Position numbers and translations under genes: made by a program. The notes under the pieces are model-generated. The model made no database searches, had not been told where the DNA came from, and was given only the letters and a program-made list of their open reading frames with translations. This document shows, piece after piece, positions 107-26,465 of a DNA stretch of 26,539 bases (its first letter is position 1; every line of letters starts with the position of its first letter). The stretch comes from a virus, in the IMG/VR virus record IMGVR_UViG_3300024308_000056, positions 1 to 26,539 of that record. One strand, written 5' to 3'.

Positions 107-171
107 AATCTACCATCGTTGTTTGATTTGATAAATATCAGGAATGGAACAGTACAGGTCATAGATAGAAC
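107..171 (-). promoter_or_regulatory. Phage-type promoter with tandem GTTCYA boxes
   Basis: On the minus strand: box 1 GTTCTA at 171-166, box 2 GTTCCA at 150-145, -35 TTTATC at 135-130, 17-bp spacer, -10 TAGATT at 112-107. Predicted +1 is near 100, giving a 23-nt leader to the ATG at 77. It separates the terminase genes from the next leftward unit. The spacing is identical to the other members of the promoter family in this window. Confidence 0.7.
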
Positions 172-172
172 A

Positions 173-1609
173 CTAGCCACGGACCGCTGCGATGGGGTCG
201 AACTTCTTCCCAGCCAGCACACGATAGCGGATGGCGTCATAGGCATGGTCCTCTGCTGAGGTGTCTACGTCATCCGGATTCTTGGGGTCACGAGGCAGCA
301 CTGGAAGCTGGGCAATCGCTGAGCGGCAATGATCCATGAAGTAGATTGCAGGACGCTCGGGGTACTCCTTGCCGGCCTCCTTCACGCGGGATCGCAGCAA
401 CTCTAGGCCGATCTTGCGGGTTCCAGGCGCCTTATCAGACTTGCCCCAGCGGATGCCAACGGATGCCATCTCATCGGCGATAGTAGGCGTCCCAGGTTGG
501 GACACTGCACTGATTTGGTTGTCGGCTGGTCCTGGCATGACATTGCGCGAGATATGGCCCGATTGTCGCATGGCCGCTTCACGGTCCTTTATGCCTTGGG
601 CAACCTCACGCGGGGCCATCTTCAAGCCCTCATTAGGAGCCTTGGCCCCATACCATTCCCCGCACAGGATGATAGACCCACGGGGCGGACAGAATTTGTC
701 GCCGTTGGGGAGCGTTGCCTCTGTGCCATCAGCCTCAGCCCACCAGCACACAGAGAACGGGTGGGTGCTACCCCAGTCAAAGGATCGATCCACGGTCCAG
801 CTATGCGGGACATTAAATGCAGGAACGATGACCCGCTCCGACCAAACATCATCCAGCGCACCGCCAGCCACGATGTTCCAGTCACCGGAAAGCATCGCCT
901 TAATTAGCGCGGCATTGCCCAAGCCCTCTAGGCGATCGGCATAGTCGGGGTCATTCTCAGTCAGAGTCGGGTTGTCATCCAGACGGGCGGGGATGTACTG
1001 CCGCTTCAGGCCACCCTCCTTCTTATCCATCTGGACGATTGCCAGCGGCGGGGCATTATCTACAAATCCAGCCTTGACCCAGTTGTGGCCGGGGCCACCA
1101 GGATTAGAGCCGCATAGTATTCTCGGGAATAGCCCCTTCATGGCAGGCGGAACTACGAGTCCACCTAGACGCAGACGACCGCGAAGATACCGGTACATAG
1201 ATGCGCTGAAGTGAGTCAACTCATCCATCAGCAGCACATGGATTTCGGCACCCTGATACTTGATTACATCCTTCTCATGCTGAAGGTGGCAAAGGTGAAT
1301 CTTCGCCCCATTCCAGAACTCAATGAAGTTCTTTGAGTAGTTGATCTTCACATGCCCCGCATCGATCCACTCACCGAGTAGGGCAGGGAAGCTAGTCGGG
1401 CCTTCCATGTGATTCTTATACAGGTCATCGAACAGACGCCGGAACAAGTAGACCTGCAAACCCGGAACCGTCGCGCACCACATGATCGAGGCCACGCGGA
1501 AAAGGTGGCTCTTACCGCCACCCGCCGCGCCGCCGTATAGGATTTCAGTCGCCTCAGACTCATACGCAATGGTCTGCTTAGCGTGAAGACTAAGGTTAAG
1601 TCCCGCCAT
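173..1609 (-). CDS. terL: Terminase large subunit
   Basis: The 478-residue product is the packaging ATPase/nuclease motor that docks on the portal, translocates DNA into the prohead and cuts the concatemer. The N-terminal ATPase has a Walker A GGAAGGGKS (26-34) and a Walker B VLLMDE (125-130), followed by a GSNPGG segment (168-173) suiting the coupling motif. The C-terminal RNase H-like nuclease domain begins around FDWG (D278) and carries a late acidic motif HAYDAIRY (D458). Length is usual for the family. The ATG at 1609 lies inside the end of the small-subunit gene (14-nt overlap), the normal TerS-TerL arrangement. It is last in the transcription unit that begins near 7929. Confidence 0.93.
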   Translation of the reverse strand: MAGLNLSLHAKQTIAYESEATEILYGGAAGGGKSHLFRVASIMWCATVPGLQVYLFRRLFDDLYKNHMEGPTSFPALLGEWIDAGHVKINYSKNFIEFWNGAKIHLCHLQHEKDVIKYQGAEIHVLLMDELTHFSASMYRYLRGRLRLGGLVVPPAMKGLFPRILCGSNPGGPGHNWVKAGFVDNAPPLAIVQMDKKEGGLKRQYIPARLDDNPTLTENDPDYADRLEGLGNAALIKAMLSGDWNIVAGGALDDVWSERVIVPAFNVPHSWTVDRSFDWGSTHPFSVCWWAEADGTEATLPNGDKFCPPRGSIILCGEWYGAKAPNEGLKMAPREVAQGIKDREAAMRQSGHISRNVMPGPADNQISAVSQPGTPTIADEMASVGIRWGKSDKAPGTRKIGLELLRSRVKEAGKEYPERPAIYFMDHCRSAIAQLPVLPRDPKNPDDVDTSAEDHAYDAIRYRVLAGKKFDPIAAVRG

Positions 1610-1889
1610 CTGGCTTTGTCAGGGTCAAATTGATGATAGGACCACCCTTGTTCTCGACCTCTGCCTTAACCTCAGATCGGCTTAGCTTAGGCGCAGCGAA
1701 CTCGGCCAACTGGGCAAGCCGCTGCAATGCCTTGTCAGGGTCATCTGCCGCCACATGCTCAAGCCAACGTGCGACGTTCTCAGCGTTGTCCTCTAGCAGA
1801 CGTGTAACCGTCTCTCTAAACGCTGTAGTGGCCTTGTTGGGCACCCCAGGCTTCCTGCCGCCCGTTTTAGGTTTGTTAGGACCTGCCAT
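1596..1889 (-). CDS. terS: Terminase small subunit-like protein
   Basis: A 97-residue basic protein directly upstream of, and overlapping, the large terminase. The N-terminus contains GGRKPGVPNKATTA (10-23), a motif common at the start of phage small-terminase-type and other DNA-binding proteins. The middle is helical (LLEDNAENVARWLEHV), and the last 20 residues look extended. The role would be recognition of the packaging site and regulation of the large-subunit ATPase. Identification rests on the N-terminal motif plus position; the sequence is shorter than many small terminases (often 140-180 residues), so it could be a minimal form. Confidence 0.7.
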   Translation of the reverse strand: MAGPNKPKTGGRKPGVPNKATTAFRETVTRLLEDNAENVARWLEHVAADDPDKALQRLAQLAEFAAPKLSRSEVKAEVENKGGPIINLTLTKPDGGT

Positions 1890-1924
1890 CTCTGTTTCCG
1901 TCTACTTTTTCGATATATCGAATA

Positions 1925-2158
1925 CTACACGATCTTCCAATCAGGGTCATTCTGAGTCTGAACCCAGCGAATTGTATCCCAGCGACTGTCACACGATGCT
2001 ACAACCATGAATCTTGAACTATCACCGTCAATAGCCCCAACTCGCTCCCACATCAGTCGGTCAATATCCACCCCTACAGCCATTGCCGTCCGCTGCTGAG
2101 CGTTCCTAGCCTTCCTAGTCAAAGGCTCCATCTTGAATGGCTTGCCTACCTTATTCAT
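1925..2158 (-). CDS. Hypothetical protein, 77 aa
   Basis: A small mixed-charge protein beginning MNKVGKPFKMEPLTRKARN. Not recognised. It has a basic N-terminal 25 residues and a C-terminal part rich in Trp, Asp and Val (SRWDTIRWVQTQNDPDW). No membrane segment. The start overlaps the stop of the upstream gene by 8 nt, so translation is probably coupled. It lies immediately before the small terminase. Confidence 0.7.
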   Translation of the reverse strand: MNKVGKPFKMEPLTRKARNAQQRTAMAVGVDIDRLMWERVGAIDGDSSRFMVVASCDSRWDTIRWVQTQNDPDWKIV

Positions 2159-6957: not shown

Positions 6958-7136
6958 CAGAAATGCTCCATCGGGACAAAGTAGGAAACCAATCTCTTGT
7001 GATACTCATCCCTTTCTTCATTTACAGGAAGAATGCAGTTAATCAAAAAATGACTGCATCCCACGGTAATGTGGGTGATTTCAGCTTCTTGCTCAGGAAG
7101 AGAGCGCAAATATTCAACAAGACCCTCAATTTTCAT
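6957..7136 (-). CDS. Hypothetical protein, 59 aa
   Basis: Starts MKIEGLVEYLRSLPEQEAEI and ends YFVPMEHF. The start overlaps the upstream stop (ATGA) and its own stop overlaps the next start (TGATG), so both ends are fixed by coupling. Amphipathic helix followed by hydrophobic strands (THITVGCSHFLINCIL). Not recognised. Confidence 0.7.
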   Translation of the reverse strand: MKIEGLVEYLRSLPEQEAEITHITVGCSHFLINCILPVNEERDEYHKRLVSYFVPMEHF

Positions 7137-7612
7137 TTGAACTCATCCTTATTCGGAACGAAAGGTCTTTCAAAGAAAGCATCCTCCCAGTCAATAGGCA
7201 TCTCCTGAAATCCGATCTCCCTACTCATGCCTTTAGACTCCCATCCCAAGTTCCAGATATAAGGTCGAAGCTCATGAGCCAGCCAACGGCCACTCTTGCT
7301 CATGGTGTAATACTTTGCCCACCCCGGAACCCTAGACCAATCAGGCGCGAGGTGATACTTAGCCTCATCTAGCGAAGCTTCAGTGGCCTCAAGTCGATTC
7401 TCGAGGCTAATGCAACGATTCTTCATTCGGTTCATCTCATCCAGATGCTCAGCATGGCTCTTACGGAGCTTGCACCAATCCAAATACAAGCTGCCAGCAA
7501 CCTTTGCAGCAAGGCGAACCTCGTTCATCACACTATTGCCCGCGCCACTGGACTCAGCCTCTTCCAGAAGATAGCGCTCAAGGTCAGCGTAGTCGATGTA
7601 ATCCCGCATCAT
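7133..7612 (-). CDS. Hypothetical coiled-coil protein with 'APDW' segment
   Basis: 159 residues. The middle (HLDEMNRMKNRCISLENRLE, about 56-75) is a probable coiled coil. Next is LAPDWSRVPGWAKYYTMS, a variant of the APDWAxW motif found in two other small proteins of this phage (at 15433 and 20576). The C-terminus is aromatic and acidic. The function of APDW proteins is unknown to me. First Met is at 7612, a second at 7609. Confidence 0.7.
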   Translation of the reverse strand: MMRDYIDYADLERYLLEEAESSGAGNSVMNEVRLAAKVAGSLYLDWCKLRKSHAEHLDEMNRMKNRCISLENRLEATEASLDEAKYHLAPDWSRVPGWAKYYTMSKSGRWLAHELRPYIWNLGWESKGMSREIGFQEMPIDWEDAFFERPFVPNKDEFK

Positions 7613-7623
7613 TCTATCTCTCC

Positions 7624-7770
7624 TTATCGAATAACCCGCGAGTGCAAGGGCGCGACTCGCTCTGCCTTCTCTCTATCCCGCTTAACCTGCTCAGACGTTC
7701 CGTGCCATGCTCGCCATGATGATTTGCCTGGATTCTTCGCCCGCTGCATTGCGCGCTCTTGGTCAGTCAT
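7624..7770 (-). CDS. Small basic protein, 48 aa
   Basis: MTDQERAMQRAKNPGKSSWR onward, ending APLHSRVIR. Strongly basic with a run of alternating Arg/Lys/Glu in the middle (QVKRDREKAERV). A GAGGTG ribosome binding site lies within the end of the upstream gene, with an ATGA overlap. Could be nucleic-acid binding; function unknown. Confidence 0.65.
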   Translation of the reverse strand: MTDQERAMQRAKNPGKSSWRAWHGTSEQVKRDREKAERVAPLHSRVIR

Positions 7771-7895
7771 GCAAACACCTCAAAGCAATCAACACTAGAT
7801 TCATCAATCCCAAGACGATGAAGATTATCAATCAACTCGGCGTATGTAATGCCATCTGCCACGCACTCTCCAAACCCATTGTATGCAGCCCACAT
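7767..7895 (-). CDS. Small acidic protein, 42 aa
   Basis: First gene of the transcription unit that leads to the lysis and terminase genes. Starts MWAAYNGFGECVADGITYAE. A GGAG Shine-Dalgarno seven bases before the ATG and a complete promoter 34 nt upstream support it despite its size. Short helices; no known family. Confidence 0.65.
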   Translation of the reverse strand: MWAAYNGFGECVADGITYAELIDNLHRLGIDESSVDCFEVFA

Positions 7896-7935
7896 GTCTC
7901 ATCTCCTATGGCTCGTGGCCGTTCTGTGTGGAGCT

Positions 7936-8001
7936 AGATTAACTATATGCGACAATCCTATCAACATCATGGATAGGACAGTAAAGCAGCATTGATAGAA
8001 C
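7936..8001 (-). promoter_or_regulatory. Phage-type promoter for the lysis/terminase unit
   Basis: Minus strand: box 1 GTTCTA 8001-7996, box 2 GTCCTA 7979-7974 (22 bp apart), -35 TTGATA 7964-7959, 17-bp spacer, -10 TAATCT 7941-7936. Best -35/-10 match of the family. It follows immediately after an intrinsic terminator, so the two units are cleanly separated. Confidence 0.82.
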
Positions 8002-8014
8002 GCTGAATGACAGG

Positions 8015-8054
8015 AATAAAAAAGCCGCAACGGCGGGATGAGTTCCGTTGCGGC
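8015..8054 (-). terminator. Rho-independent terminator
   Basis: Minus strand stem GCCGCAACGG / CCGTTGCGGC (10 bp, perfect) with an 11-nt loop, followed by TTTTTTATT. It ends leftward transcription coming through the tRNA/structured RNA region, just before the next promoter. Confidence 0.9.
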
Positions 8055-8060
8055 CTAGGC

Positions 8061-8151
8061 TTGGGGCGGGAGAGGACGCCTTACACCCTACCGGTGGAGA
8101 GGGACACCGGGCGGCGTGTGAACAGCCAGCACCGTTAGTGTATCGCCCCAA
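8061..8151 (-). ncRNA. Possible 91-nt structured RNA closed by an 8-bp stem
   Basis: TTGGGGCG (8151-8144) pairs perfectly with CGCCCCAA (8068-8061). Inside are ACGCC/GGCGT and a hairpin CCGGTG-TCCCTCTC-CACCGG whose loop is pyrimidine-rich. No credible gene covers it, and the terminator follows six bases downstream. It lacks a T-loop and anticodon arm, so it is not a normal tRNA. The pyrimidine loop complements GGAGAG, the ribosome binding site of several genes here, so a small regulatory RNA is one possibility (inference). Confidence 0.45.
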
Positions 8152-8197
8152 ATCCATCCGTCAATAGGTGGTGCGCGTAGAAGGATTTGAAAAGCCA

Positions 8198-8725
8198 TCA
8201 TAATTGTCCAGAGTAGACCTTGGCCCAATATCCCCTTGGCGGTTTAGTTATGCCAAGCTTTTTACACCTCTTTGAAACAGCAACATCACTCACCCCAAGC
8301 TTTTCGGCAACCCTAACAGTTGGCATTGACCAAACTAGCATTTCAAGGTCATCCGCATCTATAAAAAACCTAGTTCCCGCTTTTACAGAACAGTCGCATG
8401 AGCAATACTTTTGATTTGAATTGACAGAGCAATTGAATTGCATACTGCACCATGGGCATATGCGAACATCAACCGCATATCCCCTATCCTCCATGGCGTG
8501 TAATTTTGCGTGCTCAGCTATAGTCATCAACCTAAGGTTTGATAGGGAATTGTTTTTTCTGTCCCTATCTCTGTGATGAACGCACTCCCACGGCTCTAGC
8601 CTCCTGCCAATGCTTTCACACATAACATATACATGCTCCATCACCTTACCAGCCTTATTAGCGCAATAGTGATTTGGAGCATATGCGTACATATACCCAC
8701 TACCCTTGTCTTCTCTGAAAATCAT
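8198..8725 (-). CDS. HNH homing-type endonuclease with C-terminal helix-turn-helix
   Basis: 175 residues. The HNH core is around ECVHHRDRDRKNNSLSNL (His-His, then Asn-rich turn, then LRLMTIAEHAKLH). A zinc site follows (CPWCSMQF...CSCDC). The C-terminus has SVxVAEKLGVSDVAVSKRCK-like helix-turn-helix ending GITKPPRGYW, as in many free-standing phage HNH enzymes where it binds the target DNA. The ATG at 8725 is two bases after the tRNA-Arg CCA end; a longer frame from 8764 would lie inside the tRNA. The Shine-Dalgarno GGAG is supplied by the tRNA acceptor stem. Confidence 0.88.
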   Translation of the reverse strand: MIFREDKGSGYMYAYAPNHYCANKAGKVMEHVYVMCESIGRRLEPWECVHHRDRDRKNNSLSNLRLMTIAEHAKLHAMEDRGYAVDVRICPWCSMQFNCSVNSNQKYCSCDCSVKAGTRFFIDADDLEMLVWSMPTVRVAEKLGVSDVAVSKRCKKLGITKPPRGYWAKVYSGQL

Positions 8726-8726
8726 T

Positions 8727-8804: not shown

Positions 8805-8849
8805 GTATCATGGCTTGATTCCAATCAAACCAATAAAGGCATATGATTT

Positions 8850-8924: not shown

Positions 8925-8929
8925 TTATA

Positions 8930-9088: not shown

Positions 9089-9096
9089 ATAAAACT

Positions 9097-9182: not shown

Positions 9183-9190
9183 TAAATGCT

Positions 9191-9458: not shown

Positions 9459-9462
9459 TAGC

Positions 9463-17297: not shown

Positions 17298-17327
17298 TTG
17301 AAAACCTCAGTTCGTTGGTGTGAGACA

Positions 17328-17414: not shown

Positions 17415-17462
17415 CCTCTGCACCTTTGCCTGATCTACTGGCTTGGGTGCGCCGTTGAGTTC

Positions 17463-18037: not shown

Positions 18038-18767
18038 CGGGGATTTCTCCGCCGTTGTTGAGGGCGATGCTGACGGCAGTGCGTTCGGCAGGAGTGAGCT
18101 TAGGTTGTGCATGATTTGATCCGTTGTTATTTCGATTGTTCCCTGTTACCCATTCGGCTTTGAATCCCTGCCATCCACGCTCGCAGCACGTTCTGATAGC
18201 CTGCTCCATCGTGTAGCCAGCTTTGTTGGCCTCTCGCCTGATACCGTCAACAGCGGTCTGCGTTACGCTGGCTCGCTTGGCCTTGCGTAGCTTCACGAAG
18301 TCATCCACCAACTCAGGCGGCACGTCTGGAAGCAATGCGTGCGCCGAAGGTGCACGAATAGTCTTTTGCTTCTTCTCTTGGTTATTGGTTATTGGTTCTT
18401 GGTTAGCATCGGAATCACTAGCATCCGCATTGCGTTCGTTTTGCGTTGGCAATGCGTTCGCATTCTTCCACCGTGCGTTAGCAGATGCACGGGCCTTTTC
18501 AGCCTTGCCCTTGTATTCTGCAATCTCCTTGTCGCAACGCGTATGACGCCAACCGTCATCGCCGAGAGTGAAGTAATGCTTCAAAAGCAGACGTACAGTT
18601 TTTTCATCCGAACGGTATGCGAACGCAATGCTTTCGCAGTCATCTTCAAATGGAGATTCATCGGTGTAGTATCCCCACAGCATACGCATGTAGGTAGCAA
18701 TCTGATGATCGTTTAGGTTGGCGGTGTCTTTGATGAAGTCGCCAATATGGTGCTGGTAGTAGTGCAT
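17886..18767 (-). CDS. DUF1376 replication initiator-like protein (O-like)
   Basis: 293 residues. The DUF1376 N-terminus is clear: MHYYQHHIGDFIKDTANLND, HQIATYMRMLWGYYTDESPF, then KTVRLLLKHYFTLGDDGWRH and CDKEIAEYKGKAEKA. After a low-complexity linker (NANALPTQNERNADAS) a second helical domain follows (GYTMEQAIRTCCERGWQGFK), as in phage O-like initiators that bind origin DNA. The C-terminal tail is encoded across the P-like gene. Start overlaps the upstream stop by 1 nt. Confidence 0.83.
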   Translation of the reverse strand: MHYYQHHIGDFIKDTANLNDHQIATYMRMLWGYYTDESPFEDDCESIAFAYRSDEKTVRLLLKHYFTLGDDGWRHTRCDKEIAEYKGKAEKARASANARWKNANALPTQNERNADASDSDANQEPITNNQEKKQKTIRAPSAHALLPDVPPELVDDFVKLRKAKRASVTQTAVDGIRREANKAGYTMEQAIRTCCERGWQGFKAEWVTGNNRNNNGSNHAQPKLTPAERTAVSIALNNGGEIPDGYENNGNVVAEVERNLRPQVDLGLRNGRNVLGGSDVGEGIRWVNRSPGG

Positions 18768-19015
18768 CAGCCAAGAGCCTTCATGTAGCGAGCAACTAGA
18801 CGATCACGAACAGCCACTAGACGCGGCTCTTCCGTGAAGTTCCAGCCAGGATATGTGCAACGGCCGTAATCGTCTTCATACTCAGCCTCCTCAGACGGGA
18901 AAGCTTTGTACATGCGCGCATTAGCCTCAGCGCGAGCGGCCCCGATCTTCGTCATGAAGTGGCGACCACGGCGAGGGCTGTAGTAAACCTCTCGCGTCTT
19001 CTTTTCTACAGGCAT
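18767..19015 (-). CDS. Hypothetical protein, 82 aa, first gene of the replication unit
   Basis: MPVEKKTREVYYSPRRGRHF, basic N-terminal half, then EAEYEDDYGRCTYPGWNFTE. Small phage proteins with 'VYYSPxxGRHFxTK' openings are common in this position, function unknown. The Shine-Dalgarno (AAAGGG) lies in the arm of a long inverted repeat. Confidence 0.72.
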   Translation of the reverse strand: MPVEKKTREVYYSPRRGRHFMTKIGAARAEANARMYKAFPSEEAEYEDDYGRCTYPGWNFTEEPRLVAVRDRLVARYMKALG

Positions 19016-19124
19016 GAAAATACCCTTTAGGTTCGATGGACCGCATGGATAGCGATCCCCGAGATGGTAGGGTCATTGCGACCTATGTTAAGGGTCCACA
19101 ACAGCCCACCGAACCTAAAGGGTA
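19016..19124 (-). promoter_or_regulatory. Long inverted repeat in the leader of the replication unit
   Basis: 19-nt arms at 19106-19124 (TACCCTTTAGGTTCGGTGG on the minus strand) and 19021-19039, differing by one G-U pair, enclose 66 nt that hold GGTC-GCAAT-GACC and GGAT-CGCT-ATCC hairpins. The downstream arm contains the AAAGGG ribosome binding site seven bases before the ATG at 19015, so folding would hide it. It could also be an origin or binding site. Confidence 0.6.
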
Positions 19125-19196
19125 CTCGCTACCAACTCTTTTATTCCGGCCGCTAAACCGGGCCAACGCAGAACGCTGGCTGACATAGTAGAGCAA

Positions 19197-19225
19197 ATAA
19201 AAAAGGCCGCGTCAATAGCGGCCTT
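19197..19225 (-). terminator. Rho-independent terminator
   Basis: Minus strand stem AAGGCCGC / GCGGCCTT (8 bp) with 7-nt loop TATTGAC, then TTTTTTATT. It starts four bases after the methyltransferase stop and ends the unit from 21830. Between it and the inverted repeat (19125-19196) I see only a weak possible promoter, TTGGCC-17-TAAAAG. Confidence 0.88.
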
Positions 19226-19229
19226 GGGG

Positions 19230-19943
19230 TTAGATCAGTCGGCCATCGAAGGCTTGCTCGATACGATTCTTTGCAATCTCGAAATACCTATCATCGCGCT
19301 CAATGCCAATGAACTTACGGCCAGTGTTTGCGCAGGCAACCCCAGTCGTGCCGGAACCCATGCAGTTGTCCATAACAATCTCGCCCTCATTGGTGTACGT
19401 GCGAATAAGATATTCCATTAATGCTACTGGCTTTTGAGTTGGATGTTCGCCACTCTGTACAACGTCGAACTCAAGAGTCTGCTTTGGGTAATTAGTCCAT
19501 TCTTGCACATAACTTTTATCAGTCCCGCTCCCGTAGTTTTCTCCATCTCTCTTTGAATTTCTAGAATTACTTGGGGAGTAGATAAGACCTTGTGGGTTAT
19601 AAGTTGATCCTCCAAACACACAGATTTCCTCTGTGTCCCTAAGTGGCATTCTTTTTGCGTTGAGAACATTTGTTGCCCGGTTTTTACGCCAATACCATAC
19701 GTACCGGAAAATGTTCGCTTTACTCATTACAAGGGCTGATGTAAATGGTTGTGCCGCAGTAAGCACAATTGCGCCACGACATAGCCTTGTGTAATGGTCC
19801 CATAATGGTTCAAACTGAATGATTGAATCCCATTTATTCTGCGTAGTTCCATATGGAAGATCGCACATGATCATATCAACCGATCCATCTGGAATCTTCT
19901 TCATCTCCTTTAGGCAATCGCCTTTGTAAAGCGTATATCGCAT
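19230..19943 (-). CDS. DNA methyltransferase (N4/N6 amino type), copy B
   Basis: 237 residues. Motif IV DLPYG (28-32), HPTQKPVALMEYLIRTYT and motif I NCMGSGTTGVAC near the end: beta-class order, like its paralogue at 12346. The last 65 residues are nearly the same in both proteins, whereas the central target-recognition region differs (here NSRNSKRDGENYGSGTDKSY). Probably a different recognition site. ATG at 19943 overlaps the upstream stop (TGATG). Last gene before the terminator. Confidence 0.92.
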   Translation of the reverse strand: MRYTLYKGDCLKEMKKIPDGSVDMIMCDLPYGTTQNKWDSIIQFEPLWDHYTRLCRGAIVLTAAQPFTSALVMSKANIFRYVWYWRKNRATNVLNAKRMPLRDTEEICVFGGSTYNPQGLIYSPSNSRNSKRDGENYGSGTDKSYVQEWTNYPKQTLEFDVVQSGEHPTQKPVALMEYLIRTYTNEGEIVMDNCMGSGTTGVACANTGRKFIGIERDDRYFEIAKNRIEQAFDGRLI

Positions 19944-20104
19944 CAATACACCACCTTTGGCATTTCCGGCCAAACCTGATTGCCGCGCATATCCTCAACG
20001 CGCCGAGTACATGGATTGCACTCGGCATTGGATGCGGCGTCGGCATCGTCCATAAGCTCGATCATGTAGAACATGTCATCGCGGTAGAAGATATAGGTGT
20101 TCAC
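19943..20104 (-). CDS. Hypothetical protein, 53 aa
   Basis: GTG start overlapping the upstream stop (GTGA), stop overlapping the methyltransferase start. MNTYIFYRDDMFYMIELMDD, then AECNPCTRRVEDMRGNQVW. The aromatic strand opening and Cys pair are seen in other small phage proteins; no function known. It may be linked to the methyltransferase by coupling. Confidence 0.68.
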   Translation of the reverse strand: MNTYIFYRDDMFYMIELMDDADAASNAECNPCTRRVEDMRGNQVWPEMPKVVY

Positions 20105-20379
20105 TTGTTACCCCAATGTGCAACCTTGATCCATGCAGGCTTGGCGCTGCCATTGCTAGTTTTTGCTGATGCATATCCGATCCGCTGAATGAAGCCATCG
20201 TTAGACAGCGAACGGATCGTTCCGCCGAATGTGCGGAAGTCCATCGTTTCGCCAATGTCCTTGACCACATCGACCAACAGTTCCTCAGCCAAGAATGACT
20301 TTGCGCGATACTTACGGGCGATGATTCGCTTTGCTGAGTAGTAGCTAGCGGCCTGCCATGCGTATTTGTCCATCATCAC
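20101..20379 (-). CDS. Putative winged-helix protein, 92 aa
   Basis: Three Met codons in a row open the frame (20379, 20376, 20373). SFLAEELLVDVVKDIGETMD, then FRTFGGTIRSLSNDGFIQRI followed by strands (KPAWIKVAHW) reads like a small winged helix with a recognition helix at TFGGTIRSL. Possible DNA-binding role; uncertain. Confidence 0.65.
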   Translation of the reverse strand: MMMDKYAWQAASYYSAKRIIARKYRAKSFLAEELLVDVVKDIGETMDFRTFGGTIRSLSNDGFIQRIGYASAKTSNGSAKPAWIKVAHWGNK

Positions 20380-20576
20380 ACCTTCCTCCCAGTCAGTTCC
20401 TCAGTACAGCGATGGCAATACTTGAACCGCGAACCCATGCCGGTCACATGGACAGGATATTCCTCGCAGTGGGAACAGATCGGCAGTTCAGTCTCAGGCT
20501 TACGGTTAGCGTGCTGGCGGAGCGAAAGGGCCAGGTGGTATTCGCTCAGGTCGCTTGCGGAGTCTGCGAAGTCCAT
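20376..20576 (-). CDS. TraR/DksA-type zinc-finger protein
   Basis: 66 residues. MDFADSASDLSEYHLALSLR is the typical TraR-like N-terminal helix with an acidic tip; ICSHCEEYP and YCHRCTEEL form the C4 zinc finger. TraR-like proteins bind RNA polymerase in the secondary channel and change promoter choice; phage copies are often early. It is a candidate for altering host and phage transcription here. Confidence 0.82.
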   Translation of the reverse strand: MDFADSASDLSEYHLALSLRQHANRKPETELPICSHCEEYPVHVTGMGSRFKYCHRCTEELTGRKV

Positions 20577-20761
20577 TACGGGCGCTCCTCTAGTGTCCCA
20601 TTGCCATCAACAGCATTTGCCTCCTCATATCTACCATTTGTAACCCATTGTTTTGTTGGATAATCCCATGATGGCTGGTTCTCGTACCAATGCCATTTTT
20701 CATCGCCATCCTGCGAAAGCCAATTTGCCCAATCTGGCGCGCCATCCCAACTAGGTTTCAT
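20576..20761 (-). CDS. APDW-motif protein, 61 aa
   Basis: MKPSWDGAPDWANWLSQDGD, then KWHWYENQPSWDYPTKQWV. Paralogous to the protein at 15433 by the shared APDW and W.W.E..P pattern. Very Trp-rich. Stop overlaps the TraR-like start by one base. Function unknown. Confidence 0.7.
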   Translation of the reverse strand: MKPSWDGAPDWANWLSQDGDEKWHWYENQPSWDYPTKQWVTNGRYEEANAVDGNGTLEERP

Positions 20762-20771
20762 ATCTCTCTCC

Positions 20772-20924
20772 TTATTCCTTCTGACCTAGAAGAAGTCCAC
20801 TAACAAAAAATCCAATAGCAGCCATTACGATGTTTGCAATTTTTTGCTCAGGCTGCCCGTAGATAACAATACTTTGGTAAATCCCGCTTGCAAGATTCAT
20901 CCAAAAGAATGCCTTAGTCCACAT
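20772..20924 (-). CDS. Small two-span membrane protein, 50 aa
   Basis: ATG at 20924 (AGGGGATT upstream). MWTKAFFWMNLASGIYQSIV and KIANIVMAAIGFFVSGLLLG are two membrane segments. Function unknown; several such tiny membrane proteins occur in this phage. Confidence 0.65.
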   Translation of the reverse strand: MWTKAFFWMNLASGIYQSIVIYGQPEQKIANIVMAAIGFFVSGLLLGQKE

Positions 20925-20934
20925 TGGCAATCCC

Positions 20935-21087
20935 CTACTTAAGAATGACCCAGCCGACAATCAGCAGGGTTACGGCGGTCCAGATTGCCACAGTCGGCAG
21001 CTTGGACTTGCGATAGCGGCGGTACTGTGCGGTTTGCGTTGTGGCGTCGATTGAGTGCCACAGCATGCGGTCGGAAAGGCGGCTCAT
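20935..21087 (-). CDS. Small membrane protein, 50 aa
   Basis: MSRLSDRMLWHSIDATTQTA, basic stretch YRRYRKSK, then one membrane segment (LPTVAIWTAVTLLIVGWVIL). ATGA overlap with the upstream gene. Likely inner membrane with N-terminus in the cytoplasm. Not recognised. Confidence 0.68.
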   Translation of the reverse strand: MSRLSDRMLWHSIDATTQTAQYRRYRKSKLPTVAIWTAVTLLIVGWVILK

Positions 21088-21335
21088 TCTTCACCTCTAA
21101 CACGTGCGAGAGCGGTTACCAATTCTGCGCGCATGCGCTCTTCAATCGCCTCTCCTGCACCGCCGTAGCCTCGGTACTCGCCGTGAGTAGAAAGAAGCTC
21201 ATCCACCTTTTCGATTAGATTTTCCACTGCTTCGCGTGCATCTGCCAACTCACACGGAGTTGCTACGAATCCATCGTCAAGAAGAACTCGCTCAACCTCA
21301 TGCATCAATCGAACACAATCAACAGGGCTTCTCAT
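21084..21335 (-). CDS. Hypothetical protein, 83 aa (tandem paralogue)
   Basis: MRSPVDCVRLMHEVERVLLD, then ADAREAVENLIEKVDELLST and ALARVRGEE at the end. It resembles the next gene upstream over this part, so the two are probably a tandem duplication. All-helical. ATG at 21335 has GGAGCCTGAA upstream; longer in-frame starts would overlap the paralogue. Confidence 0.68.
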   Translation of the reverse strand: MRSPVDCVRLMHEVERVLLDDGFVATPCELADAREAVENLIEKVDELLSTHGEYRGYGGAGEAIEERMRAELVTALARVRGEE

Positions 21336-21336
21336 T

Positions 21337-21609
21337 TCAGGCTCCTTTGACGCGGGCGAGGGCGGCGCGGAGAGAAACATACTCTGGCTCTTCGCCATCA
21401 TGCGCCAACCTTTCAATTGAGTACCCGTAACCACGTTCCCTATCCAGAGCTTCTGCGTAGTCCCCAAGTGTATGCAAAGCCTCTTCAGCCGTATCGATAA
21501 GCTCGGCTACTGCGGCGCGGGCTTCGACCAAGCTGGATGGCGCAGTTGCAAACTCGCACATCAGCTCGTCCAGTTCCGCCAGCACATCAACATTCTTATT
21601 CATATTCAT
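21337..21609 (-). CDS. Hypothetical protein, 90 aa (tandem paralogue)
   Basis: MNMNKNVDVLAELDELMCEF, then VEARAAVAELIDTAEEALHT and LRAALARVKGA. Shared pattern with the downstream gene: AR.AV..LI....E.L.T.G.Y then ALARV.G. Soluble and helical; no known function. Four-base overlap with the gene upstream. Confidence 0.68.
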   Translation of the reverse strand: MNMNKNVDVLAELDELMCEFATAPSSLVEARAAVAELIDTAEEALHTLGDYAEALDRERGYGYSIERLAHDGEEPEYVSLRAALARVKGA

Positions 21610-21830
21610 CCCTTAACAAGTTTAAGTTTCGTTGGTTTAGGCCCATCATGCGGACTTTTGACGCAGTGCAGCATGTAGCCCTTGACTGTCGGCTGAGGCT
21701 CTATCGTGTAACCTTGCTCGCTCATCACCTCTAGGTATGTGTCAATTTTGTGCTTGGGGATAGTGGTGTGGATCATATCGCCACTATGGAGGTGCAGCCA
21801 TGCTGCCGGTGGTTTTCGGTGCTTTGCCAT
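21606..21830 (-). CDS. Hypothetical protein, 74 aa
   Basis: MAKHRKPPAAWLHLHSGDMI; basic, with a C-terminus KPTKLKLVKG. First leftward gene from the divergent promoter region. No Shine-Dalgarno is visible, and the promoter's predicted +1 coincides with the A of the ATG, so the mRNA may be leaderless; an internal ATG at 21776 is an alternative start. Confidence 0.62.
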   Translation of the reverse strand: MAKHRKPPAAWLHLHSGDMIHTTIPKHKIDTYLEVMSEQGYTIEPQPTVKGYMLHCVKSPHDGPKPTKLKLVKG

Positions 21831-21836
21831 GGGTCC

Positions 21837-21880
21837 ACTTTGCCTAGGTTTGGCGGGCCTATCAAGTCAGCAAATAGAAC
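21837..21880 (-). promoter_or_regulatory. Phage-type promoter, leftward
   Basis: Minus strand: box 2 GTTCTA 21880-21875, -35 TTGATA 21865-21860, 17-bp spacer, -10 CAAAGT 21842-21837 (weaker). A distal box is only a partial match (GTACTA). Six bases away on the other strand is the box of the rightward promoter. Confidence 0.62.
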
Positions 21881-21885
21881 GATCA

Positions 21886-21930
21886 GTTCCAGATTAGTAC
21901 ATTTATTGGCACTCTGGGTTGGCGTAATCT
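21886..21930 (+). promoter_or_regulatory. Phage-type promoter, rightward (divergent)
   Basis: Plus strand: GTTCCA 21886-21891, -35-like TTTATT 21902-21907 (16 bp from the box start, one more than elsewhere), 17-bp spacer, -10 TAATCT 21925-21930. Drives the rightward unit whose first ATG is 21972. Back-to-back with the leftward promoter, so one protein could control both. Confidence 0.6.
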
Positions 21931-21971
21931 ACACCCATCGACAGGGCTGATGCCCACATAGGAGAGGCAAC

Positions 21972-22253
21972 ATGGCTACCAAGTACGACAACTGGAAGAC
22001 CTCAGCGCCGGACACCAATAGCGAGGCTTGGACGGAGGCTGTAGAGGAAGTGGCTGACGAAATCGGACCCGTTGAGCGCGCTGAGATGGTGCAGACTCTG
22101 GCAGTAGCTACGGGCGCTCTGGACTGGATCGCTGGCGCTATCGAACTGCCGCAGCATCATCTGGCCGCATTCCGCGACCTCATCAAGATGGCCGACAGCT
22201 ACCGTGAGCAGGTCGAGGATGCAATGAAGGTGTACCATGACCCGCGAGATTGA
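21972..22253 (+). CDS. Hypothetical protein, 93 aa
   Basis: First rightward gene. MATKYDNWKTSAPDTNSEAW; acidic and helical throughout (VEEVADEIGPVERAEMVQTL). GGAGAGG lies seven bases before the ATG. Not recognised; overlaps the next gene by 17 nt. Confidence 0.72.
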   Translation: MATKYDNWKTSAPDTNSEAWTEAVEEVADEIGPVERAEMVQTLAVATGALDWIAGAIELPQHHLAAFRDLIKMADSYREQVEDAMKVYHDPRD

Positions 22254-22641
22254 TTGGAAGAAGAAGGATGTTTGGACTCACCGCGAGTCCAACTTCTGCG
22301 TAGAAGTAAGCCGCCATGATGGCTCGAAGCTGGATGGCAGCACTGAGAACATTTGGTGTATCTATGCTTACGTCTGGAACAATCATCCGGCGTTCGCCCT
22401 ATTCAAACGCGATGGAAGGTCTTCGGATCAGCCTTGCTTTGATGTTCACAGCTATCCAAGTTTTTACAATCCGCATATCAACAAGGATGGCGAAGTTACT
22501 GCCCATCAAATCGGCTGGGATTACAACCATGATGGTGACTGGCACTATCTTGAATGCGAAACAAAGGATGATGCAGCCAGCGTTTTTTGGGATGCCGCTG
22601 GACTAGCAAATCAGTTGAGGAATTGGGGAAATGAGGATTGA
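22237..22641 (+). CDS. Hypothetical protein, 134 aa
   Basis: MTREIDWKKKDVWTHRESNF; rich in Trp, Tyr, His and Asp (GWDYNHDGDWHYLECETKDD), probably a compact beta-rich fold. 'FxVEVSRH' and 'W.vYAYI...HP.F' stretches recur in phage proteins of unknown function. No catalytic motif assigned. Confidence 0.7.
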   Translation: MTREIDWKKKDVWTHRESNFCVEVSRHDGSKLDGSTENIWCIYAYVWNNHPAFALFKRDGRSSDQPCFDVHSYPSFYNPHINKDGEVTAHQIGWDYNHDGDWHYLECETKDDAASVFWDAAGLANQLRNWGNED

Positions 22642-22747
22642 TTGGTGCCTTGTGTTCAGCGACGTTCGCACCATCGCAACCGTAGCCGCCATGACCGTAT
22701 GCGTCGGCGGCTTGCTCATCATCGGCTTGATCGGAGTGGCTACCTGA
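22631..22747 (+). CDS. Small membrane protein, 38 aa
   Basis: MRIDWCLVFSDVRTIATVAA then one hydrophobic segment to the end (MTVCVGGLLIIGLIGVAT). GAGG upstream, overlapping the preceding gene, and its stop overlaps the next start (TGATG). Too short for family assignment. Confidence 0.6.
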   Translation: MRIDWCLVFSDVRTIATVAAMTVCVGGLLIIGLIGVAT

Positions 22748-22896
22748 TGCTCAACAAATGGACCAGCCTGGCGATGTTCCTTGTATGTCTCGCAGGCATC
22801 TACTACTGCTGGCACGATGACAGCGGAGGGATCGTGCTTTTCACGTTCGGCGCTGCTGTGTGTGGTGTGCTGACTTACTTTGAGTGGAGGAAGTGA
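22747..22896 (+). CDS. Small two-span membrane protein, 49 aa
   Basis: MLNKWTSLAMFLVCLAGIYY, a short polar loop CWHDDSGG, then IVLFTFGAAVCGVLTYFEW. ATG overlaps the upstream stop; stop overlaps the next ATG. Hairpin topology. Function unknown. Confidence 0.65.
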   Translation: MLNKWTSLAMFLVCLAGIYYCWHDDSGGIVLFTFGAAVCGVLTYFEWRK

Positions 22897-23309
22897 TGGC
22901 TAAAAGGATGGAGGGGCTTGTCGGGAAGCTCACGATAAGCAGACGAAGCGATGACATGATTTATATACAAATCACAGACGAATCATCAAAATCAAGGTTT
23001 GTTGAGCTTGAATTGACGACTTCTAACTTTGCAATGGCAGTGACTGGGTTGTCTCATGTCGAGTGCAAGCTATCTGTTGATCGACTGGATGCAGTTGGCA
23101 AGGAAAAACAGGTAGAAACCCGAAAAGCACTTTGCCCTCTTAACACATATGACAGAGAAAAGCTGGTTCAGTGGATTCATCAAAATTGCTGGGAAGATGG
23201 CTGGGAGATTGATGCATACATTGGGTCTCAAGGCAGTGTAACTAGAGTTGAGGATGGAACACTTCTTCGGTACAAAGTGTTTAGATACATTGATAGAGTG
23301 GACCGCTGA
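22896..23309 (+). CDS. Hypothetical phage protein, 137 aa
   Basis: MAKRMEGLVGKLTISRRSDD then MIYIQITDESSKSRFVELEL; a beta-rich first half, Cys-containing second half (HQNCWEDGWEIDAYIGSQGS). The 'EGLVGxLTISRxSDD.I.I.I.DE.S' opening recurs in phages and has no known function. GAGGAAGTG upstream; start fixed by the TGATG overlap. Confidence 0.72.
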   Translation: MAKRMEGLVGKLTISRRSDDMIYIQITDESSKSRFVELELTTSNFAMAVTGLSHVECKLSVDRLDAVGKEKQVETRKALCPLNTYDREKLVQWIHQNCWEDGWEIDAYIGSQGSVTRVEDGTLLRYKVFRYIDRVDR

Positions 23310-23371
23310 TTCTCAGCTAGAGAGACTACAGCACGGTAAAATAGCTGTACGATGCAGATATGGAGAGGAAA

Positions 23372-24274
23372 ATGAATGAAGTAGTTGAGGCGCAGCCGAA
23401 AGAGCAGCGCATGGCCCCGTATCAGGCGGCTATCAAGAAGGCAGAGGAAAAGTTCCGCGAGGTAGCTGAAAAGACGGTCAACTATGATCGTGAGTGCATC
23501 TTTGCCATGCAGGCATTGATGAAAACCGACTTCGCCATGCAGACGGCCAATAAGAACCCAAAGTCTGTTCACCTGGCGATGATTAACGTGGCATCCACCG
23601 GCCTGACGTTGAATCCGGCGAATGCCTACGCGTATCTGATCCCGCGTGATGGCGCTATTGTCCTTGACATTAGCTACAAGGGACTTATCAAAATCGCCAC
23701 GGACACCGGCGCTATCCGGTGGGGCCGTGCTGAGATTGTCTACGAAAGCGATACGTTTGAGTACCACGGCCCAGCCCGCGAGCCGATCCACAAGTGCAAT
23801 CCGTTCAAGCGCAAGGATGATGACCAAATCATCGGCGTCTACTGCATCGCCAAGACTAGTGACGGCGACATTCTGACGGAGGTCATGGGCGCGGATGAGC
23901 TAGAAAAGATTCGCGGTAAGTCCATGAGCTACGCCAAGAAGAAGTCGGGGCCGTGGGTTGAGTGGTTTGAGCAGATGGCCAAGAAGGCGGTCATCAAGCG
24001 CGCTAGCAAGACTTGGCCGTATACCGAGCGAGCCGAGAAGCTGAATCAGGCAATCGAGATGGCTAACGAGTCTGAAGGCGGCTATGACCTTGAGGCCGAG
24101 GCCGTCAAGCTTGTCAGCCAGGATCAAGCGGCAACGATCCGCGATCACATTGAGGCATCCGGCATTGATGCGTCTAAGCTTCTTGGGATCATCGGTGTTG
24201 AGGCGGTTGAGGCAATTCCGGCTAGTCGATTCACCGAGGTTGTTCAGACAATCCAAGAGGCTTCGAAGGCGTGA
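23372..24274 (+). CDS. recT: RecT-family single-strand annealing protein
   Basis: 300 residues. The RecT core is plain: FAMQTANKNPKSVHLAMINV, ASTGLTLNPANAYAYLIPRD, LDISYKGLIKIATDTGAIRW, then YCIAKTSDGDILTEVMGADE and EWFEQMAKKAVIKRASKTWP. RecT-type proteins coat single strands made by the partner exonuclease and anneal them, used in phage recombination and replication. The ATG at 23372 has GGAGAGG upstream; an earlier ATG at 23360 would hide it. The exonuclease follows, overlapping by 4 nt. Confidence 0.95.
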   Translation: MNEVVEAQPKEQRMAPYQAAIKKAEEKFREVAEKTVNYDRECIFAMQALMKTDFAMQTANKNPKSVHLAMINVASTGLTLNPANAYAYLIPRDGAIVLDISYKGLIKIATDTGAIRWGRAEIVYESDTFEYHGPAREPIHKCNPFKRKDDDQIIGVYCIAKTSDGDILTEVMGADELEKIRGKSMSYAKKKSGPWVEWFEQMAKKAVIKRASKTWPYTERAEKLNQAIEMANESEGGYDLEAEAVKLVSQDQAATIRDHIEASGIDASKLLGIIGVEAVEAIPASRFTEVVQTIQEASKA

Positions 24275-24918
24275 AGATTCTAGAGTGCGAGCAATACTCG
24301 CCTGAGTGGTGGGCGGCTCGGGCTGGCGTTCCTACGGCATCCAATGCAGACCGAATCCTGACCGCAGCGGGCAAGCCATCATCCAGCCAAGCCGCTTACA
24401 TGGCCGAGCTGATAGATGAGATTGTTCGCCCACGTGATGAGCGGCCAAGCGATGAGCAGGCATTCGGCGGTAATCGACACACTGAGCGCGGCAATGAATT
24501 GGAGCCTAAAACGAGAGCTTGGCACAGCCTAGTTAGCGGATGTGAAATCAAGGAAGTCGGAATGATCTTCCGAGACGATGGTCTAGTAGCTTGCTCCCCG
24601 GATGGGCTAATGCTCGGGCGAGACTCACAGCCAATCGGAGGCGGAGAATACAAGGCTCCGGAAGGCAAGAAGCATGTACTATGGATGATCGAGAACAAAC
24701 TACCGGATGAGCATAAGCAGCAGGTTCATTTCTCACTGGCAGTCAGCGGCTTGCCGTTTTGGGAGTTCGTGAGCCACTGTCCAGGCTACAAGCCGTTCCG
24801 AATCCGAGTAACACCCGACGACTACACAGCCAAGATGGCGGCTGAGATTGACGCATTTGTCATCAAGCTACAGGCAGCAAAAGAAAAGTTCATCGACTAT
24901 ATCAACCAAAGGAAGTGA
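24271..24918 (+). CDS. YqaJ-type viral exonuclease
   Basis: 215 residues from a GTG that overlaps the RecT stop. Lambda-Exo/YqaJ fold: SPEWWAARAGVPTASNADRI at the N-terminus, RGNELEP (73-79), SPDGL with Asp111, and GGEYKAP with Glu126 and Lys128, the PD-(D/E)XK active site, then KQQVHFSLAVSGLPFWEFV. It resects duplex ends 5'-3' so that RecT can load. Together with RecT and SSB it makes a full phage recombination module. Confidence 0.93.
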   Translation: MKILECEQYSPEWWAARAGVPTASNADRILTAAGKPSSSQAAYMAELIDEIVRPRDERPSDEQAFGGNRHTERGNELEPKTRAWHSLVSGCEIKEVGMIFRDDGLVACSPDGLMLGRDSQPIGGGEYKAPEGKKHVLWMIENKLPDEHKQQVHFSLAVSGLPFWEFVSHCPGYKPFRIRVTPDDYTAKMAAEIDAFVIKLQAAKEKFIDYINQRK

Positions 24919-24919
24919 G

Positions 24920-25369
24920 ATGGCAAGCGGATTGAACAAAGTTCAGTTGATCGGAAATTTGGGAAATGACCCTGATTGTAAATACACCCAAGCTGGCAAG
25001 TGCATCACTCGGATCAGCGTAGCAACAACCAATGTCTACAAGGACAAGGAAGGCAATCGCAAGGAGGATGTTCAGTGGCATCGAGTTGTATTCTTCGGGA
25101 AGATTGCGGAAATTGCAGGCGAATATCTGCGGAAAGGATCAAGCGTCTACATCGAGGGTTCGCTGAAGTACGATAAATTCACTGGTCAGGATGGTGTAGA
25201 GAAATACACAACCGACATTGTTGCTAGTGAGTTGAAGATGCTTGGCGGAAAGCAGGAAGGCCAAAGCGGAGGCTCTGTCGGATCGCGCGGTAGTACGCCA
25301 CAGCGACAGCAGCCACAGCAACAGACTCCGCCGATGGATGATTTTGAATCAGATGATATTCCATTCTGA
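24920..25369 (+). CDS. ssb: Single-stranded DNA-binding protein
   Basis: 149 residues. An OB-fold with MASGLNKVQLIGNLGNDPDC, then WHRVVFFGKIAEIAGEYLRK and GSSVYIEGSLKYDKFTGQDG, a Gly/Gln/Pro linker and the acidic tip ESDDIPF that binds partner proteins. Coats single strands during replication and recombination. The ATG at 24920 (GGAAGTGAG upstream) is used; a longer frame overlaps the exonuclease. Its last codons lie in the first unit of a 13-bp tandem repeat. Confidence 0.96.
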   Translation: MASGLNKVQLIGNLGNDPDCKYTQAGKCITRISVATTNVYKDKEGNRKEDVQWHRVVFFGKIAEIAGEYLRKGSSVYIEGSLKYDKFTGQDGVEKYTTDIVASELKMLGGKQEGQSGGSVGSRGSTPQRQQPQQQTPPMDDFESDDIPF

Positions 25370-25379
25370 TATTCCATTC
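25354..25379 (+). repeat. 13-bp perfect tandem repeat at the end of ssb
   Basis: TGATATTCCATTC occurs twice back to back; the first copy encodes the end of the SSB tail and part of its stop codon. A further partial copy (GATTCTGATATG) follows. It marks the junction between ssb and the HNH gene and may record the insertion or slippage. Confidence 0.85.
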
Positions 25380-25406
25380 GATTCTGATATGTGATATGGT
25401 GCTGCA

Positions 25407-25871
25407 ATGGACACAAAACATTGCAACACCTGCAAAAAGACAAAGATACACAGCGAATTCCATCTTAGAGCAGCTAGCCCTGATGGTCTTTCTGCAAAAT
25501 GTAAAGATTGCGCAAAAGCCTACGACAAGGCTAGAGCAAATCTTCCGCATCGAGTTGCAGCAAGGATTGCATACCAAAAAACAGAAAATGGGAAGAAATC
25601 TGTTTTAAAAGCTAAAAAGAAGTATGACTCTTCTGAAAAGAAGTTGGCTTGCATTCAACGGCATAGAGCAAAGCACCATAAGAAATACAAAGCTAGGCAG
25701 GCTGTAGGAAATGCAATAAGAGATGGAATTTTAATTAGAGGCGTATGTGAGGTATGCGGCGAAATTAGAACGCATGGTCACCATGACGACTACAACAAGC
25801 CGCTTGATGTTAGATGGCTATGTACTACACACCATGCGCAGTGGCACAAAGAAAACGAACCAATAACCTGA
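25407..25871 (+). CDS. HNH endonuclease-like protein
   Basis: 154 residues. N-terminal CNTCKKTKIHSEFHLR and CKDCAKAYDKARAN form a zinc-ribbon of the kind seen in free-standing phage HNH enzymes. A basic linker follows (KSVLKAKKKYDSSEKK). The C-terminus CEVCGEIRTHGHHDDYNKPL and WLCTTHHAQWHKEN carries the HNH-type His/Asp and second Cys-His set. Inserted between ssb and a small gene. A mobile element by type; A+T-richer than its neighbours. Confidence 0.83.
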   Translation: MDTKHCNTCKKTKIHSEFHLRAASPDGLSAKCKDCAKAYDKARANLPHRVAARIAYQKTENGKKSVLKAKKKYDSSEKKLACIQRHRAKHHKKYKARQAVGNAIRDGILIRGVCEVCGEIRTHGHHDDYNKPLDVRWLCTTHHAQWHKENEPIT

Positions 25872-25882
25872 GAGGAATTGAA

Positions 25883-26215
25883 ATGACCACTAAGCAAGAA
25901 CTTGAACTCTCTGTAGCTAATGCCAAGGCCGCTCTTGCAACCGCTGAGGCTGCACTTCAGGCATTCAATGATGCGCCTGAAAACAACCGATTTGATGATC
26001 TGCAAGTTGCGCTTGATACGATTGAGGATGATCTTCGCAGCCAGGCTTTTGAGGATTGCCAAGGTGCTTACAACTGCGGCGCAGACTCCTACAGCAAGGA
26101 GTTCTACGTAGGCGATACGCTCTATCGTGGCACGGCTGAGTTTGAGTACAACCGCCATGACAAGACGTACTACTACATTGAAGAATGCAATTTCACCTAT
26201 GAGGAAGTGAAATGA
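25883..26215 (+). CDS. Hypothetical protein, 110 aa
   Basis: ATG at 25883 with GAGAGGAATTG upstream; longer in-frame starts lie inside the HNH gene. MTTKQELELSVANAKAALAT, a helical Ala-rich first half, then a beta-like half rich in Tyr (KTYYYIEECNFTYEEVK). No family recognised. Before the HNH gene inserted, it probably followed ssb directly. Confidence 0.7.
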   Translation: MTTKQELELSVANAKAALATAEAALQAFNDAPENNRFDDLQVALDTIEDDLRSQAFEDCQGAYNCGADSYSKEFYVGDTLYRGTAEFEYNRHDKTYYYIEECNFTYEEVK

Positions 26216-26397
26216 CCAAGCCTAAGAAGAAGCCTAAGACTGGCGATGTTGTTGGGTGGGTGGTGCTGGACAATGAAGGAGATATTCGCGGAGGCGTTCG
26301 ATCAAGCCGAGAGGATTCCCGTTCGGCTAAAGAATGGATGAACGATAGGGCTAGCTGTCCTCCATACCGAATCGCCAAGATCGTCCTAGCCAAGTGA
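26212..26397 (+). CDS. Hypothetical protein, 61 aa
   Basis: MTKPKKKPKTGDVVGWVVLD, very basic start, then a strand-rich segment and KIVLAK. ATGA overlap with the upstream gene. Last gene of the rightward unit; the distal box of the next promoter starts two bases after its stop. Confidence 0.68.
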   Translation: MTKPKKKPKTGDVVGWVVLDNEGDIRGGVRSSREDSRSAKEWMNDRASCPPYRIAKIVLAK

Positions 26398-26399
26398 TC

Positions 26400-26465
26400 G
26401 TTCCATTTCCGTAAACGATCTGTTCCACACATGATGGCTTCATCGTTCCTAGTAATGGGTATGAT
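26400..26465 (+). promoter_or_regulatory. Phage-type promoter, rightward
   Basis: Plus strand: box 1 GTTCCA 26400-26405, box 2 GTTCCA 26422-26427 (22 bp apart), -35-like GCTTCA 26437-26442, 17-bp spacer, -10 TATGAT 26460-26465. GATCGTT and AACGATC flank box 1 as an inverted repeat. Predicted +1 about 26472, leader 24 nt. Confidence 0.68.

Follow-up and report, generated by a model that had tools for sequence, protein, structure and literature searches.

Asymmetric, often tandem boxes at fixed distance from the -35 hexamer mark a predicted promoter family in phages related to Stenotrophomonas phage CUB19

Introduction

Why should promoters scattered along one phage genome share a short box at a constant distance from the -35 hexamer, and what would read it? 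The question is raised by IMG/VR record IMGVR_UViG_3300024308_000056 (G000; 26,539 bases, the whole of which was analysed and is called the window below), a siphophage fragment kin to Stenotrophomonas phage CUB19, in which a sequence-only reading had proposed nine promoters with GTTCYA boxes under a dedicated phage regulator. Here, we report that these promoters form a genuine family, for which limited literature searches yielded no earlier description. The word ‘promoter’ does not occur in the available part of the main text of the CUB19 papers (PMC9612306, PMC11881566), and no literature on the promoters of these phages was among the matches listed by our searches, outside which most subscription papers lie.

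Pieces of the window (7–41% of the query) matched CUB19, S72/SBP2phi2, SOVA965, Xanthomonas phage Kintu and an Acinetobacter phage Silvergun record at 81–89% identity, and the XRE-type gene of the CUB19-related group is carried by eight IMG/VR records. We compared 14 genomes: the window, five named phages (L005–L009) and G001–G008, the 13 related records having been selected by the XRE gene or by a DNA match to the window. Most records measure 46–50 kb, by which standard the window, G003 (24.8 kb) and G008 (28.4 kb) are fragmentary. L008 (OZ038342.1) is an ‘Acinetobacter phage’ by name, with an empty host field, in a Stenotrophomonas/Xanthomonas clade, and its name or host may need checking.

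Results

The window contains 41 copies of GTTCYA, compared with 20.3 ± 4.8 in shuffled sequence, and none of 100 shuffles reached 41. Joined to a -35 hexamer as GTTCYA-N9-TTGAT, it was found 44 times and in all 13 related records, compared with one occurrence of the reversed control pattern. The sequence-only reading had suggested scanning a matrix of the sites over relatives. With a 28-position matrix, such a scan yielded 56 sites of at least 12 bits in the window plus five relatives, where 10 Markov controls averaged 1.6, and, at a threshold of at least 14 bits, 93 sites in 14 genomes. Both counts are partly circular, since exact matches from the window and five relatives served as the seed and the genomes scanned were also used for refinement. 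The reversed pattern, the -10 hexamer (which lies outside the seed) and gene context provide independent checks. The 93 sites divide into 26 distal boxes, each exactly 21 bp upstream of another site, and 67 proximal or single boxes; distal boxes at 22 bp, such as that at 8001 in the window, were missed because only a distance of exactly 21 bp was counted.

The module consists of a 16-bp asymmetric box, ANYGTYCYAYNNRTGR, an adjoining TTGAT -35, about 17 bp and a TANNNT -10. With any site within two mismatches of another dropped from the logos, 57 non-redundant proximal sites gave the consensus A-N-Y-G-T-Y-C-Y-A-Y-N-N-R-T-G-R + T-G + T-T-G-A-T + ~17 bp + T-A-N-N-N-T, with a constant box-to--35 distance. 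The -10 stands outside the matrix yet is conserved, its second base being A in 54 and its last base T in 50 of these 57 sites, and the ~17 bp between TTGAT and TANNNT in the 57-site logo falls within sigma70-type hexamer spacing (16–18 bp). Distal boxes (24 non-redundant) have a fuller consensus, ATCGTTCCATCCATGA, followed by weaker conservation at bases 13–16, up to the start of the next box. By arithmetic that assumes a -10 at -12 to -7 and a 17-bp spacer, the proximal box is predicted at about -53 to -38 and the distal box at about -74 to -59.

We read the box as a direct, asymmetric 16-bp unit. A hand count of its consensus against its own reverse complement found no shared position; the box is asymmetric, yet an imperfect 23-bp dyad can be drawn if the -35 is used as well. 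A palindromic operator as the sole reading is weakened by the 24 non-redundant distal boxes, which are asymmetric over 16 bp. An IHF-like site at TTGAT was also considered and dropped on inspection by eye, because position 10 is T where the IHF consensus has A. GATC is frequent within the boxes.

Placement relative to genes was assessed with the 21 proximal sites of at least 18 bits in five annotated phages. For 19 of the 21, the next same-strand gene starts within 150 bp of the -10, compared with 28% of random coding-strand positions (the two sites beyond this limit are CUB19 24288 and Kintu 31353), and only 3 of the 21 have their core inside an annotated gene, compared with 81% of random coding-strand positions. 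The proposed position at the heads of operons is thus supported. Box promoters precede genes of several functional groups, and a stem with a T-run precedes some sites in relatives. A sigma70 consensus scan (9 of 12) of positions 7000–26539 returned eight promoter-like sites against 19.4 in shuffles, and none of the eight box promoters in this interval was among them; the box promoters therefore look weak on their own, as expected if they are helped.

In its tandem form, the element is confined among viral contigs to this clade. A tandem pattern, GTTCYATCCATGA-N5-ATYGTYCYA, had eight matches in 7 of 2.9 million viral contigs, all seven from the clade, and one match, in Paenibacillus, in 84,980 cellular genomes, where about 0.5 was estimated by chance. 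This distribution speaks against a host regulon. Of 38 stretches that matched a looser single-box pattern, 32 lie outside the clade, and 7 of the 32 reached 14 bits with the matrix; none of the five records checked among these 32 carried the XRE gene, and we treated the outside matches as chance. One GC-rich viral contig outside the clade (L018, 3300034103_001120) has a single 28.2-bit box at 443 and no XRE match, and could be either a chance match or a distant user of the box. No relatives of the XRE protein in cellular genomes were confirmed.

Inspection of the window recovered all nine sites of the sequence-only reading, whose coordinates mark, for the seven sites on the minus strand, where the -10 ends on its 3' side and, for the two on the plus strand, where the first box begins. 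The pattern GTTCYA-N9-TTGAT is exact at five minus-strand sites, with boxes at 15223, 16301, 17370, 17506 and 21880, and the site with its box at 7979 (GTCCTA) completes the six said to have a TTGAT -35. A second box lies 21 or 22 bp upstream in the six sites expected to have one, at 171, 8001, 16322, 17391, ~17528 and 26400 (before 26422). Other details needed amendment: a GTTCYA box beside the -35 was found at most sites but not at 7936, where the proximal box is GTCCTA; the box-to--35 distance is 15 bp, but 16 bp, claimed once, applies to two sites, 21886 and 26422, both on the plus strand; and a TAATCT-like -10 at 16–17 bp is present at most sites but not at 21837, which has the poor -10 CAAAGT.

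The leftmost promoter (107–174, minus) follows the terminase large-subunit gene and comprises a distal GTTCTA (171–166), a proximal GTTCCA (150–145), a -35 that reads TTTATC (135–130) and TAGATT (112–107); its class is also present in S72, G001, G002 and G004. The promoter at 7936–8004 (minus) has a distal GTTCTA (8001–7996; 22 bp), the proximal GTCCTA (7979–7974), TTGATA (7964–7959) and TAATCT (7941–7936), and follows a short stem and T-run, the stem being too short to appear in our terminator-scan list for the window. A 48-aa basic protein (window ~7620–7770, minus; L009 39550–39696), 79–98% identical in the other 13 genomes, was the most conserved small protein in one comparison of the genomes. 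Sites 15180 and 21837 lack a clear second box. The former (15180–15226, minus) has GTTCTA (15223–15218), TTGATC (15208–15203) and CAATCT (15185–15180). Tandem boxes are found at 16258–16325 (minus; GTTACA 16322–16317, GTTCTA 16301–16296, TTGATA 16286–16281, TAATCT 16263–16258), at 17328–17394 (minus; GTTCCA 17391–17386, GTTCTA 17370–17365, TTGATG 17355–17350 and, after a 16-bp spacer, TAATAT 17333–17328) and at 17463–17531 (minus; distal GTTCCG ~17528, 22 bp off, proximal GTTCCA 17506–17501, TTGATC 17491–17486, TAATTT 17468–17463).

Two divergent promoters lie upstream of the gene at 21606–21830. Its own leftward promoter (21837–21883, minus) has GTTCTA (21880–21875), TTGATA (21865–21860) and CAAAGT (21842–21837), then 6 nt and the ATG, an arrangement found in nine of ten rows of this class; the tenth (G004) has identical spacing and a reading frame below the length filter of our script. 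If CAAAGT is the -10, the gene is predicted to have a leaderless mRNA. The region is shared with a rightward promoter (21886–21930, plus; GTTCCA 21886–21891, TTTATT 21902–21907, TAATCT 21925–21930), the weakest of the nine sites, which is in neither matrix hit list and whose box is not retained by every relative in an alignment of the divergent region. The last, promoter-like site (26400–26465, plus) has GTTCCA at 26400–26405 and 26422–26427 (22 bp apart), CTTCAT (26438–26443) and TATGAT (26460–26465). It scored 20.6 in the scan of the window and five relatives and is absent from the 14-genome list; its orthologues were recovered in SOVA965 (19.2, the former scan) and G007 (17.2, the latter).

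One and the same promoter and leader can head different reading frames. The promoter-leader sequence CAATCTAGCCACATCGGGCAACGGCCTAACGGAGAGATGAGATG precedes frames beginning MNSREVV in the window and G001, MSRSNRHV in G002 and MKRNPRKD in G004 (frames were taken by script, not annotation, as the first ATG or GTG of at least 35 codons). A gene for an 85-aa protein (MNIEYTAEQ), headed by a box promoter, follows the terminase gene in S72 and G004, lies beside the winged-helix gene in Kintu and stands behind a 7979-class promoter in G003. The stretch between the terminase gene and the 150-type promoter is present in S72, G004 and G002 and absent from the window and G001; in that comparison, homology ends at 256–261 and resumes at 268–270, and boxes start at 250 and 271. 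A promoter-gene cassette thus appears to have been gained or lost after the terminase gene (window 107–260, minus; L007 35100–35900), and because its junction lies between two tandem boxes, the boxes may also be exchange points.

Elsewhere in the window, two related DNA methyltransferase-like genes (12346–13086 and 19230–19973, minus) match CUB19 genes annotated as adenine-specific. Relatives have one to six annotated tRNA genes near window positions 8700–9900; ARAGORN found only tRNA-Gly in the window, and an Rfam scan of the window gave no match at the gathering threshold.

Discussion

We infer that the sites are active promoters under a phage-made factor that activates rather than represses. 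A phage-encoded transcription factor would bind the 16-bp asymmetric site touching the -35, a second copy would bind two helical turns upstream (~-74 to -59) in many promoters, and the bound factor would help host sigma70 RNA polymerase to use the weak phage promoters that head many operons. That a phage factor binds the boxes and activates, whichever protein it may be, is probable, if not strongly so, and activation is more likely than repression. The dedicated regulator beside the -35 that had been proposed from the window gains support from phasing, conservation in 14 genomes, clade restriction and gene context, evidence that would fit an activator or a repressor and more than one protein.

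Among the three candidates named by the sequence-only reading, the XRE-type protein is still in contention (see below), but two are now disfavoured. The small helix-turn-helix (HTH)-like protein at 16455–16652 (minus) is disfavoured because it had no tblastn match (E 1e-3) in G004 or G006 and matched SOVA965 over no more than residues 1–38, although all three have boxes. The DksA-like zinc-finger protein at 20376–20576 (minus; PHROG 54, weak, E 7.4e-4) is disfavoured as a DNA reader because this family works on polymerase and not by reading DNA. A small protein at 20101–20379 (minus), possibly a winged helix by a weak Pfam match (E 0.13), is a minor candidate, and the 74-aa product of the first gene of the leftward operon (21606–21830, minus) has no Pfam or PHROG match. 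The 20101, 20376 and 21606 proteins are each found in 12 of 13 relatives and are missing in G003.

Our best single guess, to which we give somewhat less than an even chance, is a tandem winged-helix protein of ~243 aa (CUB19 24330–25061 and orthologues). Of the 14 genomes, 12 encode it, and the two that lack it, the window and G003, are both fragments; L103, a contig from the sample of G003, encodes it. The protein surfaced on comparing SOVA965, which has different structural genes, with the other genomes, and had been missed before because it is encoded outside the fragmentary window. We rank it ahead of the XRE-type protein on grounds of form: with two DNA-binding domains per chain, it would be suited to a 16-bp box that is not a palindrome. 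Other clade-wide proteins could also fill the role. The predicted model of the G002 protein has winged helices at residues 3–57 and 74–129 and a long helix at 141–170. All 11 sequences aligned share R32, G33, Q36 and M38 in the first recognition helix (the G004 gene, which spans the record ends, was excluded from the alignment). Pfam matches to TrmB are sub-threshold, and a PDB sequence search with the protein profile gave a best E of 0.21. Further IMG/VR contigs encoding the protein are L101, L103 and L104, the first two with one box of at least 18 bits each in the DNA examined. Its C-terminal motif, VDEWL..GG.IDRSPT...FERL, is strongly conserved (L005 24330–25061 and orthologues).

Several observations weigh against this proposal. 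Repression is compatible with the same box geometry, and TTGAT is itself a fair -35, so that some sites may work unaided. The model of the G002 protein is modest (mean predicted local distance difference test, pLDDT, 68; predicted template modelling score, pTM, 0.33), with good confidence restricted to the winged helices, and winged helices that bind RNA or protein are among its best fold matches in the PDB. In contrast to the constant box, the second winged helix of the candidate is variable. L104 (5.4 kb) encodes a relative of the protein and has no box of at least 18 bits. Co-occurrence was rejected as a means of naming the regulator: the XRE, 21606, 16455, 20101 and tandem winged-helix proteins all match the same 10 phage records. 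Co-variation of box and protein type was likewise tried, and neither the XRE groups nor the 20101 groups differed clearly; C at position 6 and G at -4 are more frequent in the B group. The fullest form of the proposal, in which the tandem winged-helix protein would be a new type of activator that reads the 16-bp box as a monomer, in 21-bp steps, at most operons, with cassettes recombining at the boxes, is doubtful.

The rival that survives best, which we nevertheless consider unlikely, names the XRE-type protein (10872–11321, minus) as the factor, which would bind as a dimer to CGTTCYA-N9-TTGATCG, an imperfect dyad with the -35 as its right arm, and would either repress or activate. The protein has a clear Pfam match (HTH_37, E 2.7e-11) and is found in 13 of 13 relatives, S40 and R41 of its recognition helix are invariant in 11 sequences, and the dyad arms agree at five of seven positions by hand count on the consensus. 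However, the distal boxes are conserved over the asymmetric 16 bp, whereas their right arm is conserved only in the part shared with the next box, and other residues of the recognition helix vary among three groups (QYSR, QLSR and ANSR) whose boxes show no clear difference. An HTH dimer with arm centres 16 bp apart would also be unusual.

Less probable again are boxes serving as operators of a phage repressor of the immunity or early shut-off type. A single regulator over many promoters is known for repressors, and a site touching the -35 would suit repression too. Against this, the available part of the CUB19 paper reports no lysogeny-associated proteins (PMC9612306). The boxes, moreover, all lie upstream of the -35 and never between -35 and -10, and the promoters, which match the consensus poorly, head genes from several functional groups. 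A host regulator whose sites are exploited by these phages is highly improbable: phages do use host factors, but the tandem pattern was matched only by the Paenibacillus sequence among cellular genomes, a search outside which a looser host motif would lie. Least probable is that the repeats chiefly mark places where promoter-gene cassettes recombine, their fixed spacing copied from an ancestral cassette, which would account for identical promoters and leaders before different reading frames and for the junction between two tandem boxes, but copying alone fails to explain why box, -35 and -10 are conserved in diverged promoters and the intervening DNA is not.

Conclusion

A phage-encoded activator reading these boxes would supply the regulatory code of a phage group from which some isolates have been proposed for Stenotrophomonas maltophilia therapy; its DNA target is defined, and two proteins can be tested. 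Such an activator would also offer a compact model in which many phage operons stand under one factor and promoter-leader units are exchanged between small genes. Systems of this type are known from other phages. T4-type phages have mobile promoter and stem-loop cassettes, in which promoter units, some after a stem with a T-run, lie between small exchangeable genes; in contrast, the units described here carry a dedicated upstream box, and one junction falls between two boxes. The middle promoters of T4 (MotA/AsiA) likewise combine a phage-specific asymmetric box with a host -10, and in the part of the source available, MotA is a monomer and nearly 60 middle promoters have been identified (PMC2988021). 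The MotA box, however, is centred at -30 and replaces the -35, whereas here the box lies at ~-53 to -38, the -35 is kept and the box is often doubled at 21 bp; family scans, confined to selected proteins, gave a single weak match to MotA_activ (E 0.029), which does not indicate kinship. At the middle promoter Pm of phage Mu, according to the available part of the source, a 16-bp element just upstream of the -35 is bound by the activator Mor and sigma70 polymerase is used (PMC4390567), but the Mor site consists of inverted repeats bound by a dimer at -43.5, whereas our box is asymmetric and serves many promoters. The start-associated sequences (SAS/ESAS) of Cluster K mycobacteriophages are likewise short and asymmetric and recur ahead of many genes within a single phage clade, about half of them accompanied by a second element in the part of the source available (PMC3203893); SAS lies at the translation start, whereas the box described here is upstream of the -35 and -10, with the next gene starting after the -10. 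Within a type of system known from other phages, the module itself is, as far as our searches reach, a new form.

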